The translations under genes and the position numbers were made by a program. This document shows positions 61,292 through 64,000 of a DNA stretch of 64,000 nt, piece after piece (position 1 is the first letter of the stretch; every line of letters begins with the position of its first letter). Where the stretch lies: assembly GCF_001042615.1 (NCBI RefSeq), contig NZ_AP012327.1, positions 558,001 through 622,000 on the forward strand, written 5' to 3'. The stretch comes from Bifidobacterium catenulatum subsp. kashiwanohense JCM 15439 = DSM 21854. Its GTDB lineage: Bacteria > Actinomycetota > Actinomycetes > Actinomycetales > Bifidobacteriaceae. Below the pieces are notes generated by a model. The model was given only the letters and a program-made list of their open reading frames with translations. It did not search any database and was not told where the DNA came from.

Positions 61292-62061
61292 TGGCCGAAC
61301 CGACCATTCTACTCGAAGGACGTGGCATCGACAAGTTCTTCGGCAAAGGCAGGCAGCGCAGACAGGTGCTGTTCGGCGTGGATATTACGGTCTACGCGGG
61401 GGAGTGCCTTGCTGTGATCGGCGGCTCCGGATCGGGAAAGACCACGCTTACGCGTGTGTTGCTCGGTTTAGAAGATGCCGATGCCGGTGACATACGCTAT
61501 CGAGGTGAGGTTCTGCGCAAGCAGACCGCGAAATCGTTGCGTAGCCAGTCCGGACTGGTATTCCAGAATCCATTCGATTCGTTGGATCCGCGATGGCGTG
61601 TCGCAAAATCCGTCATGGAACCGTTGCGATTGCGCCACCACGACTGGTCCCCTGAACAGATTTCGGCGCGTGTGGACGACGCTTTCCTCAGGGTGAGCCT
61701 CGATCCGGCAGCATACCGGAACCGCTTCCCCATGGACCTATCCGGAGGACAGGCACAACGTGCCGCGATCGCCCGCGCCATCGTCGACCATCCGACCGTG
61801 TTGCTTGCCGACGAGCCGATGAGCGCCATCGACGTTGCCGCCCGCGTGCAGATTCTCGAATCGTTCAAGGCGATCCGTGCCGCCGAACCGGAGATGGCGC
61901 TCATCATGGTGTCTCATGATCTGGGTGTTGTCCAACACATAGCCGACCGCATCATGGTGGTCCATGACGGGCATGCCGTCGAAATCGGAACGGCCGCCCA
62001 AGTGCTGGAACGTCCGAAAAACGACTATACGAAACGGTTGGTTGACGCCGCTTCGATGTGA
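61291..62061 (+). CDS. Peptide ABC transporter ATPase (DppF/OppF type)
   Basis: 256 residues from ATG 61291 (GAAGGAGG at 61278-61284; ATG 61288 is an alternative three bases earlier). Walker A GGSGSGKTT, Q-loop LVFQNPFDSLDPRWRV, signature LSGGQAQRAAIARAIV, Walker B VLLADEPMSAID. Last gene of the five-gene importer; a terminator follows. Confidence 0.94.
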   Translation: MAEPTILLEGRGIDKFFGKGRQRRQVLFGVDITVYAGECLAVIGGSGSGKTTLTRVLLGLEDADAGDIRYRGEVLRKQTAKSLRSQSGLVFQNPFDSLDPRWRVAKSVMEPLRLRHHDWSPEQISARVDDAFLRVSLDPAAYRNRFPMDLSGGQAQRAAIARAIVDHPTVLLADEPMSAIDVAARVQILESFKAIRAAEPEMALIMVSHDLGVVQHIADRIMVVHDGHAVEIGTAAQVLERPKNDYTKRLVDAASM

Positions 62062-62072
62062 TGGCCTCCCGC

Positions 62073-62116
62073 AAAAACTCACCCATGTCCGCTATTCGGA
62101 CATGGGTGAGTTTTTG
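62073..62116 (+). terminator. Terminator of the oligopeptide importer
   Basis: AAAAACTCACCCATGTCCG pairs with CGGACATGGGTGAGTTTTT around CTATT: a 19-bp near-perfect stem. Confidence 0.93.
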
Positions 62117-62463
62117 CCACCGGAGGATGTGCTATCGTATGGCTCATGTTCAATTTCTCATGTTGTTGCTGTCGCTGACCAACCGCCCGAGGGGCGCGTG
62201 GTTCATCGAAGCATAACTTGAGACAGGGCATTCTTTCGACATCCGCATTCTATGTGGGATGTCATTTCATCGCACAAGAATCATCCCATAACCAGTGCCT
62301 AACGCGGTTGGTATTACGCGGCATATGCGGATGAACTGCGGTGAAGACACCATCGCAGATCCCGTTTCAAATCATTGCAAGTGATAAACGCGAGCTTCTC
62401 GAAATCAAAAACAACGAAATCATCCATCGGAAGCCAATAAACAATCATTTGCAAGGAAACGCC
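62117..62463 (+). promoter_or_regulatory. cbs leader region with candidate cysteine attenuator
   Basis: A 347-base stretch with no full-size gene. It contains a -10-like TATCGT (62133-62138) placing transcription at about 62146; a 10-codon poly-Cys ORF (62146-62178); ACCAACCGC (62178-62186) exactly complementary to GCGGTTGGT (62304-62312); a hairpin GACATCC/GGATGTC (62238-62263); a CTGCGGTG/CACCATCGCAG hairpin (62336-62358); and CGTTTC (62363-62368), complementary to GAAACG (62456-62461), which overlaps the cbs ribosome site. Together these fit a ribosome-stalling switch; the folding itself is inferred. Confidence 0.65.
62146..62178 (+). CDS. Leaderless poly-cysteine leader peptide (upstream ORF of cbs)
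   Basis: ATG TTC AAT TTC TCA TGT TGT TGC TGT CGC TGA encodes MFNFSCCCCR: four consecutive cysteine codons just before the stop. There is no ribosome site; TATCGT (62133-62138) lies 7 bases before the A of ATG, so the A should be the transcript start. Poly-Cys leaderless upstream ORFs that sense cysteine are known from mycobacteria. Scarce Cys-tRNA would stall ribosomes on these codons, masking the ACCAACCGC segment at the stop codon. The ORF precedes cystathionine beta-synthase, which fits. Too short for homology. Confidence 0.75.
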   Translation: MFNFSCCCCR

Positions 62464-63474
62464 ATGACCATCCACAATTCCCTTTCCGAACTCATCGGCA
62501 ACACTCCGCTCGTCAAACTCAACCACGTGACCGACGGCATCAAAGCCACCATCGCCGTCAAAGTCGAATATTTCAATCCGGGAGGCTCTTCCAAAGACCG
62601 CATCGCGGAACGTATCATTGACGCGGCCGAACGCAGCGCCGAACTTAAGCCGGGTGGTGTGATTGTGGAACCGACCTCCGGCAATACCGGCGTCGGACTT
62701 GCCCTCGTGGCGCAGCAGCGCGGCTACCGCACCATTTTCACCCTGCCGGACAAGGTTTCCGAAGCCAAACGCGCGGTACTCCGCGCATACGGTGCAGAAG
62801 TGGTCGTAACCCCTACCGATGCGGGTCCGGATGATCCGCGCTCCTACTATCAGGTGGCGGAACGCCTCGCCAAAGCAATTCCGGGAGGGTACCGCCCGAA
62901 CCAGTATGGCAATCCGAACGGGCCGGAAAGCCACTACCACACCACCGGTCCGGAAATCTGGGAAGCCAGCGATCATCAGGTCACGCATTTCGTGGCGGGC
63001 ATTGGCACCGGCGGTACCATTTCCGGCACCGGCCGTTACCTGAAAGAAGCTTCCGACGGTAAGGTGCAGGTGGTCGGCGCCGATCCGGAAGGCTCCATCT
63101 ACTCCAATCCGGACGACGTGCACCAGTACAGCATCGAAGGCGTCGGCGAGGATTTCTATCCGAAAGCGTTCGACCGTGAGCTTCCCGACGAAATCGTGCA
63201 GGTCAACGATGCCGAAGCGTTCGAAATGACCCGTCGTTTGGCTGCGGAGGAAGGCCTGCTGGTCGGAGGATCGTCCGGCATGGCCGTTATGGCGGCCCTC
63301 AAATACGCTCGCGAGCATGATTTGGATGAAAACCAGCTGGTAGTGGCGTTGCTGCCCGATTCTGGCCGCAGCTATATGGAAAAGATCTTCAACGACGATT
63401 GGATGCGTGCCAACGGATTCGCCGACGTTGTGGAACGCACGTCCAAGCCAAGTCTTGCGGAGCGGTATCTGTAA
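62464..63474 (+). CDS. Cystathionine beta-synthase without regulatory domain (or cysteine synthase)
   Basis: 336 residues from ATG 62464 (CAAGGA at 62452-62457). PLP-dependent fold II enzyme; Lys44 in NPGGSSKDR is the PLP lysine and SGNTGVG is the substrate loop. YYQVAERLAKAIPGG, PNQYGNPNGPESHY, GADPEGSIYS and GVGEDFYP are features of cystathionine beta-synthases more than of O-acetylserine sulfhydrylases, and the C-terminal CBS-domain pair of human-type enzymes is absent. The next gene is a cystathionine gamma-lyase/synthase, so it probably makes cystathionine from serine and homocysteine. A cysteine synthase annotation is the alternative. Confidence 0.85.
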   Translation: MTIHNSLSELIGNTPLVKLNHVTDGIKATIAVKVEYFNPGGSSKDRIAERIIDAAERSAELKPGGVIVEPTSGNTGVGLALVAQQRGYRTIFTLPDKVSEAKRAVLRAYGAEVVVTPTDAGPDDPRSYYQVAERLAKAIPGGYRPNQYGNPNGPESHYHTTGPEIWEASDHQVTHFVAGIGTGGTISGTGRYLKEASDGKVQVVGADPEGSIYSNPDDVHQYSIEGVGEDFYPKAFDRELPDEIVQVNDAEAFEMTRRLAAEEGLLVGGSSGMAVMAALKYAREHDLDENQLVVALLPDSGRSYMEKIFNDDWMRANGFADVVERTSKPSLAERYL

Positions 63475-63553: not shown

Positions 63554-64000
63554 ATGACCATCTCGACCAACGCCGAAGCCCTGAACGCCACCGCACTCGC
63601 CACCCGCGCCATTCATGCAGGACAGGAGCCCGATCCGACCACCGGAGCCGTGGTCACCCCTATTTATATGACATCCACGTTCAAGCAGGATGGTGTCGGC
63701 GGTCTGCGCAACGGTTATGATTACAGCCGTTCCATCAATCCGACCCGCAATTCCTTCGACGAGCAGCTAGCTGCGGTCGAAGGCGCGAACTACGCGCTGA
63801 GCTTCGCTTCCGGACTGGCCGCCATCGACGTGCTGCTTCGTGCCACGTTGAAACCGGGCGACAATATTCTGCTTGGCAATGACGTGTATGGCGGAACCTA
63901 CCGATTGCTTTCCAAGGTGTTCGTGCCGTGGGGAGTCGGCCTTGACGTGGTGGACGTCACCGATACGGCTGCCGTTTCCGCGGCGCTCAGCCAGAAGCAG
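63554..64000 (+). CDS. Cystathionine gamma-lyase/synthase, 3' end cut by window
   Basis: 149 codons are visible from ATG 63554 (AAGGAG at about 63540) to the window edge with no stop. PLP-dependent Cys/Met metabolism family: ATRAIHAGQEPDPTTGAVVTPIY, YSRSINPTRNSFDEQLAAVEG and the FASGLAAID loop with YGGTYRLL. The PLP lysine lies beyond the window. With the gene before it, it would convert cystathionine to cysteine (lyase) or act in the forward direction (synthase, MetB); members of both types look alike here. Confidence 0.9.
   Translation, partial: MTISTNAEALNATALATRAIHAGQEPDPTTGAVVTPIYMTSTFKQDGVGGLRNGYDYSRSINPTRNSFDEQLAAVEGANYALSFASGLAAIDVLLRATLKPGDNILLGNDVYGGTYRLLSKVFVPWGVGLDVVDVTDTAAVSAALSQKQ

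Follow-up and report, generated by a model that had tools for sequence, protein, structure and literature searches.

Four-segment attenuators are classically known from trp, his and ilv. Mycobacteria, which belong to a different order of the Actinomycetes from Bifidobacterium, carry several poly-Cys loci per genome, together a ribulon. Leaderless polycysteine short ORFs of mycobacteria have reportedly been described as attenuators by Canestrari et al. in 2020 (Mol Microbiol 114:93). Cys-rich upstream ORFs (uORFs) on leaderless mycobacterial mRNAs were noted in 2015 (PMC4633059), and a further account cites, in its accessible part, mycobacterial poly-Cys ORFs as translation attenuation and ilvB1 of Mycobacterium as an attenuator of the four-segment amino-acid kind (PMC13236596). 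For Bifidobacterium itself, Seliverstov et al. 2005 recorded a leader ORF with a Cys run before B. longum cbs; as far as the accessible part of that paper goes, the other attenuator elements were missing and the mode of regulation was unknown, with Rho regarded as possible (PMC1262725). A literature search on leaderless transcription, attenuation and uORFs in Bifidobacterium found no treatment after 2005, most subscription papers lying outside its coverage. How bifidobacteria, gut commensals in wide use, obtain their cysteine is poorly understood.

Here we analysed the cbs leader within a 64,000-nt stretch of Bifidobacterium catenulatum subsp. kashiwanohense DNA (the window), in which all features given below lie on the + strand. 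The putatively regulated gene, cbs (62464-63474), belongs to the cystathionine beta-synthase / cysteine synthase family, its product scoring 509.3 bits against TIGR01137 (NCBIfam), one bit under the curated cut-off of 510.25; the closest named relatives among the matches listed are those of Bifidobacterium sp. N4G05 (97%) and B. ruminantium (93%). A longer ORF of 377 aa (62341-63474), extending into the leader, begins with an in-frame GTG 123 nt 5' of the cbs ATG, and automatic annotation starting from this GTG could absorb part of the attenuator into the protein. The next gene of the cluster (63554-64000, running past the window end) we take from sequence features to be cystathionine gamma-lyase/synthase-like, and presumably recQ-like and then luxS-like genes follow this pair (G000:C1:621400-625500, L213); luxS could provide homocysteine, which might in turn be used by cbs. 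The same neighbourhood, with cysK, metB, recQ, luxS and cysE, is present in B. bifidum according to the accessible part of PMC4656816. The cbs-like enzyme BLD_0914 of B. longum forms cysteine from acetylserine and sulfide in vitro, and its authors state, in the part of the paper that is accessible, that it is possibly not functional in bifidobacteria (PMC11540073).

A perfect inverted repeat of 21 bases, containing runs of A and T (62071-62117), separates the upstream ABC-transporter gene from the cbs promoter and looks like a bidirectional terminator. Comparison of 61900-62700 with Rfam 15 returned no bacterial regulatory family (riboswitch, T-box) at E values up to 5. Five matches were obtained, every one under its gathering score, and four of them fell on the inverted repeat, which matches microRNA-precursor families below threshold.

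From sequence comparison and predicted folding, we regard it as probable that the cbs leader acts as a translational attenuator responding to cysteine, built from a leaderless sensor ORF and four RNA segments whose pairings exclude one another. Segment 1, UCUCA-U-GUUGU of the Ser-Cys-Cys codons (62156-62166), is the 5' strand of the putative switch helix P1 and in the duplex prediction reaches to 62147-62151 as well. Segment 2 (62211-62232) consists of the near-invariant GCATAACTTGAGA (62211-62223) and CAGGGCATT, and has either segment 1 or segment 3 as its predicted partner. Segment 3, CCCGTTTCAA (62361-62370), is the putative anti-RBS, and segment 4 is the cbs ribosome-binding site AAGGAAACG (62453-62461). 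Transcription would start at the uORF ATG. With ample cysteine, the ribosome would clear the ten codons and segment 1 would pair with segment 2, so that segment 3 stays available and closes the cbs RBS. When Cys-tRNA is scarce, the ribosome would stall on the Cys codons and occupy segment 1; the freed segment 2 would capture segment 3, the RBS would open, and cbs, probably together with the next gene, would be translated. Ribosome stalling and the cysteine response are the steps of this model that we infer.

The ten-codon ORF MFNFSCCCCR with four Cys codons at 62161-62172, which a preliminary description of this DNA had pointed out, is borne out by sequence reading and comparison as a leaderless-type sensor uORF at 62146-62178 (ATG TTC AAT TTC TCA TGT TGT TGC TGT CGC TGA). 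That description had also placed TATCGT (62133-62138) for a transcription start at the ATG and had seen no ribosome site for the uORF, and both claims find support in the comparison of relatives. TGC directly precedes TATCGT, forming an extended -10 element (62130-62138) whose last base lies 7 nt before the uORF ATG, and a TANNNT ends exactly 7 nt 5' of the ATG in 50 of 58 distinct motif-bearing elements and 6-8 nt from it in 57. AGGA, GGAG or GAGG was found between -18 and -5 of the uORF in 0/58 elements, and the GGAGG at 62122-62126 of the window lies 5' of the -10 and would thus fall outside the transcript. Because the spacing of the -10 is fixed, we infer that the uORF ATG is the transcription start in vivo. 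Cappable-seq classified 15% of the start sites of B. pseudolongum as leaderless, as given in the accessible part of PMC4782308. A GACACG-like block at about -41 to -32 before the uORF is moderately conserved in many relatives; in the window it was not observed, the upstream inverted repeat filling its place. The block is possibly a -35 element or a regulator site.

The preliminary description had further proposed to look for a poly-Cys ORF before cbs in other Bifidobacterium genomes, its absence from close relatives counting as refutation; this refutation did not come about. A Cys-run-Arg-stop ORF was found 5' of cbs in 44/44 Bifidobacteriaceae loci among the best 80 cbs loci (43 Bifidobacterium and one Pseudoscardovia), 133-492 nt from cbs and with CCRCCR as a variant of the Cys run in one of them (L013). 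None of the other 36 actinobacterial loci among the best 80 showed a short ORF with Cys-Cys-Cys within 700 nt upstream, less than 700 nt being present for three. A second draw comprised 151 family genomes. A cbs with 68% identity or more was present in 73 of them, and the pattern of Cys run, Arg and stop preceded it in 73/73; this count refers to the pattern, the start codon having been inspected in part of the cases only. It was compiled for 34 genomes by joining two tables by eye, for one (G048, stop TAG) separately and for 38 by pattern listing. The list of cbs identities leaps from 68% to 46%, and 17 further genomes with homologues of 46% or less only were left out. The two genome sets probably share species. 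Counted by gene copies in the second draw, 74/75 carry the upstream pattern. The exception is a second cbs copy in one genome (G124), situated about 2.5 kb downstream (L181), without a poly-Cys ORF and with the strong-looking ribosome site GAGGAGGATCGC.

Within the 2.34-Mb genome of the window, TGYTGYTGYTGYCGNTRA occurs once and the four-Cys-Arg-stop pattern has a single match, while a looser Cys pattern gave 16 matches versus 6 in a reversed control, two of the 16 having been looked at. A second site of TGTTGTTGTCGTTGACCG (G000:645427-645444), common to several relatives, was dropped as it lies, by eye, antisense in the start of a conserved gene. When the class was searched for four Cys codons followed by Arg and stop, 71/296 genomes matched, and in large genomes the matches seemed to lack specificity. 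A covariance model based on a partial RNAalifold structure found the element in 9/297 order-level genomes, all of the window's genus, missed for instance one that has a compact form of the leader (G061), and was not used further. Altogether 65 distinct leaders were collected; in 62 the motif was recognised by pattern, and in three (L041, L042, L120) it was not, relatives of these three being folded separately. These 62 were grouped by similarity into 42 groups, the first member of each representing it in folding and complementarity tests, whereas promoter spacing and pair counts refer to the 58 elements with recognised motif in which identical ones were counted once.

The conserved motif at 62211-62223, partner of 62156-62166, was absent from the preliminary description. 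GCATAACTTGAGA or a close variant is located about 60-110 nt 3' of the uORF start, and the exact 13-mer occurs in 41/151 family genomes, at most once per genome, compared to 3 matches in total in the reversed control. The 1:2 helix joins UCUCA-U-GUUGU, from the uORF Ser and first Cys codons, with AUAAC-U-UGAGA and encloses a post-stop hairpin (62178-62202) that overlaps the stop codon and is nested within P1; among 42 alignment rows, one column pair of this hairpin (40-59) is G-C in 31 and A-U in 4, the other 7 being unpaired. In the core of the 1:2 helix, 282/290 pair cells of the 58 elements hold standard pairs. Pair 4 is C-G in 46, U-A in 10, U-G in 2 and broken in none, the permutation maximum being 54/58 paired (n=2000). 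For pairs 1 and 6, too, pairing goes beyond permutation (p 0.001 and 0.0015), pairs 2, 3 and 5 hardly vary, and the outer pairs 7-10 showed no excess over permutation in a fixed register in these 58 elements. Pair 4 was also traced on a 52-row tree of cbs, where its segment 1 base provides five independent contrasts; the segment 2 base co-changes in four (C-G/U-A), is unchanged in one (U-G) and goes the wrong way in none. The sign test gives p 0.125, the minimum for this number of contrasts, with 0.05 out of reach. These changes on both sides of the 1:2 helix are consistent with four independent events.

In a MAFFT alignment of 42 elements, 95.6% of the 1:2 cells pair versus 22.5-53.4% with the partner slid, and three of five pairing measures beat 499/500 shuffles; the other two, pairs with double change and further pair types, were not above shuffles in these elements. 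RNAalifold recovered only part of the 1:2 helix from this alignment, in our opinion due to the variable number of Cys codons shifting the register, and the 1:2 pairs were therefore counted on a named structure. Complementarity of the uORF to its downstream sequence exceeds that to shuffled sequence over 54 leaders (mean z -0.99, p 3.5e-7), with p<0.05 for the single duplex in 9/54 only. Pseudoscardovia-like leaders with no recognisable motif keep the helix in other letters, L187 for instance pairing GTTCAATTC with GAATTGAAC; in L185 the helix is doubtful (z 0.1).

The uORF bears signs of being kept as RNA. TCTCATGT is retained in a second reading frame in 9/58 elements (Leu-Met-Cys type), so that RNA rather than peptide seems to be conserved in the uORF. 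Cys codons of the uORF are TGT in 136 and TGC in 7 cases over 42 leaders, as opposed to 218 TGC and 33 TGT in window ORFs of at least 300 codons, among which antisense frames are possible. This preference for TGT would reflect either a pairing constraint or a rarer codon used for sensitivity.

As a group, the leaders display above-chance complementarity in the further steps of the proposed relay, segment 2 with 3 and segment 3 with 4. The cbs RBS is matched better by its own leader than by shuffles (mean z -0.90, p 8e-7, 42 representatives), and when ribosome sites were swapped among these representatives the own one was superior to those of other species (p 9e-4). In the window, the CGTTTC part of segment 3 (62363-62368) is complementary to GAAACG (62456-62461), which overlaps the AAGGA ribosome site of cbs (ATG at 62464); this pairing, already noted in the preliminary description, corresponds to the putative closing helix of segments 3 and 4 and is supported by the RBS comparison. 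Further anti-RBS examples are CTCGTTATC for GATAACGAG (L040) and TTGTTTCACG for CGTGAAACAA (L026). Segment 2 likewise has a partner in its own leader that is better than chance (p 2.6e-4 and 3.8e-4, 42 leaders); in the window, CCCGTTTCAA is predicted to pair with TTGAGAC(A)GGG of segment 2, both as a duplex and in the fold with the ribosome on Cys3. The best sites for the RBS and for segment 2 share at least 6 bases in 16/42 leaders, compared to a mean of 7.6 and a maximum of 14 in 100 shuffle sets. With a looser criterion of at least 3 shared bases, the count was 19/42 at a shuffle mean of 12.6, but the shuffle maximum was also 19.

The preliminary description had assigned the decisive role to a different strand, ACCAACCGC at 62178-62186, which the stalled ribosome would cover and which is complementary to GCGGTTGGT at 62304-62312 (segment 5). 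This complementarity is exact, and pairings of this type, such as ACCGACG with CGTCGGT or GCCGCCGCCCC with GGGGCGGCGGC in relatives, are above chance for the 42 leaders as a group, not for every leader (p 2.9e-4 versus shuffles, 0.002 versus swaps). It looks auxiliary, however, competing with the post-stop hairpin, rather than being the main switch. Since the usual ribosome footprint of a stall on the first Cys codon would leave 62178-62186 uncovered, this stretch is unlikely to be the covered strand; it would be partly covered if the ribosome stalled on the last Cys codons. The proposal that a stalled ribosome opens the cbs RBS agrees with comparison and folding, but the main covered strand would be formed by the Ser-Cys codons at 62156-62166.

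To quantify this opening, leaders were folded with a partition function, the first 31 nt being masked to represent the stalled state, and the cost of opening -18 to +3 of cbs was determined for the 42 leaders. An RBS opening that depends on segments 1 and 2 is predicted: the mean cost fell from 8.35 kcal/mol in the free to 6.13 kcal/mol in the masked state (change -2.2, p 3e-7), with a fall of more than 1 kcal/mol in 26/42 and a rise of more than 1 in 2/42 leaders. The closed-state cost of 8.35 kcal/mol compares to 6.23 kcal/mol in shuffled leaders (p 3.7e-6), in which the segment 1 mask caused a change of -0.21 only, with 23% of 252 folds below -1 and 12% above +1 (paired p 1.3e-6). Masks of 31 nt placed elsewhere in the 42 leaders yielded +0.10 and -0.22, and masking segment 2 alone -0.05. 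Because masking segments 1 and 2 together removes most of the opening (-0.51; p 0.05 versus free, 2e-6 versus segment 1 alone), most of the predicted RBS opening depends on the freed segment 2, as the four-segment model expects. Fifteen leaders outside the 42 gave a mean of -2.95, with 9 below -1 and 2 above +1 (p 0.005; 0.015 versus shuffles), the start of one (L172) being placed 4 bases early and compact leaders being given a wider shuffle in this test. For the twelve relay-type leaders among these fifteen, the mean was -2.1, with 6/12 below -1 and 2/12 above +1 (p 0.04 versus zero, 0.11 versus their own shuffles).

The window's own leader responds weakly in these predictions, by -0.3 with the standard mask; for its SD core the change is +0.2 when Cys1 or Cys2 occupies the A site, and the largest fall is -1.3, on Cys4. 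This is because the helix of 62375-62385 with 62444-62454 persists in the stalled folds: beside segment 3 lies a helix extension (62373-62385), of which TTGCAAGTGAT (62375-62385) pairs with 62444-62454 just 5' of the RBS. The SD-core change in near relatives ranges from +1.0 (L043) to -7.7 (L102), and L009, L013 and L060 are leaders for which strong switching is predicted. RBS sequestration relieved by stalling is thus predicted at the family level, by folding and comparison, and is weak in the window's leader, so that the case rests on the family and not on this single leader.

Some leaders may manage without the relay. In three compact leaders of 110-133 nt (L179, L182, L183), the Cys-codon region is predicted to fold directly onto the RBS region, and the RBS is predicted to open by 5.3-7.3 when the Cys-codon region is masked. 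The isolated duplex stands out clearly from shuffles only in one of them (L183, p 0.019), the p values of the other two being 0.18 and 0.14; a further leader (L042) is known here as a 133-nt leader only. By these folds, the compact leaders would be a two-segment version of the switch. We incline, with some reserve, to the broader view that the Bifidobacteriaceae possess a cysteine attenuator before cbs that comes in two designs, the sensor codons of its leaderless ORF themselves serving as a switch strand. The relay design would run from Cys codons through motif and anti-RBS to the RBS in leaders of about 200-490 nt, and in the direct design of the compact leaders the Cys codons would pair with the cbs ribosome-site region.

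Among other explanations, Rho-dependent transcription attenuation, in which a stalled ribosome or the structure that it frees would hide a Rho site in the long untranslated leader and control would act mainly on transcription, appears unlikely to us. Leader lengths of 110-492 nt and the lack of a conserved intrinsic terminator would suit it, and Rho was suggested for B. longum cbs by Seliverstov et al. 2005, in the accessible part of that paper (PMC1262725). In addition, mRNA left untranslated because its RBS is closed would be accessible to Rho, so that both modes could coexist. Rho alone, however, leaves unexplained the complementarity of segment 3 to the RBS with its co-variation, as well as the compact leaders with their Cys codons on the RBS region. 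Attenuation as in trp would instead call for an intrinsic terminator. The window has one terminator-like site (62242-62258, where shuffles expect 0.7), and 9/42 leaders contain at least one such site (mean 0.21 versus 0.11 in shuffles), but 33/42 have none, a conserved hairpin with U-run was not found and the leader alignment shows no hairpin with U-run at a fixed place. As terminator-like sites occur in only 9/42 leaders, intrinsic termination was set aside as most improbable.

Two further readings concern the uORF itself. Arrest by the nascent peptide, rather than by shortage of Cys-tRNA, could draw on the constancy of Arg-stop after the Cys run in the collected elements, though the search patterns required Arg-stop; the residues preceding the run vary (MFNFS, MQIFS, MTYLM, MTFIS, MINRS), whereas the TCTCATGT nucleotides are kept across reading frames, and we give this reading hardly any credence. 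It is also very unlikely that the conserved stretch is merely a promoter plus a stable 5' hairpin acting on mRNA stability, next to a short ORF without regulatory use. The 1:2 hairpin and its nested stem do dominate the 5' end when the leaders of the window and of three near relatives are folded in the free state, but such a hairpin leaves the Cys run, the use of TGT (136:7 in 42 leaders) and the complementarity to a distant anti-RBS unexplained. For the attenuator reading that we prefer, published mRNA data offer no clear agreement; they concern mRNA levels and other species. By qRT-PCR, mRNA of B. longum BLD_0913, numbered beside the cbs-like BLD_0914, rises with cysteine, and BLD_0914 mRNA is slightly lower without methionine (PMC11540073). 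In B. bifidum, added cysteine seemingly caused no modulation of these mRNAs by qRT-PCR, and glutathione, with poor growth, raised cysE, cysK and metB mRNA (PMC4656816).

Compared to the described systems, the B. longum element of 2005 is most likely the same as the one analysed here, having Cys codons near the stop, before cbs and in the same genus. As far as its accessible part shows, the 2005 paper dealt with a single bifidobacterial sequence and gave no RNA structure, and the leaderless start, the motif, the anti-RBS and the compact form described here are not mentioned in it (PMC1262725). The attenuator parts reported missing then can now be named base by base, and the paired changes point to a handful of decisive mutations. 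Within what the literature search covered, the kind of element is already known, and the relay structure, its family-wide conservation and the compact form appear to be new. If true, the two designs would show how a relay can be gained or lost in the evolution of an attenuator.

With the mycobacterial polycysteine ORFs the element shares, beside a putative leaderless start, a short ORF with consecutive Cys codons near its stop, the position before cysteine-metabolism genes (cbs being assigned by NCBIfam) and the proposed opening of a downstream RBS when ribosomes stall. The mycobacterial regulated genes differ, being cysA2, nirA and others in the accessible part of PMC4633059, and here the gene is cbs, with a leader that is long and carries a conserved anti-anti-RBS motif and a predicted four-segment relay found across a family. 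Our findings point to leaderless poly-Cys control outside the mycobacteria as well. With classical attenuators it would have in common that a ribosome stalled on sensor codons selects between two mutually exclusive helices; in contrast to these, the output would be closure of the RBS instead of an intrinsic terminator, the sensor ORF would lack a 5' leader, and the sensor codons themselves would act as a switch strand. The element would provide a clean example of codons selected as RNA, with TGT used over the window's preferred TGC and nucleotides kept in two frames.
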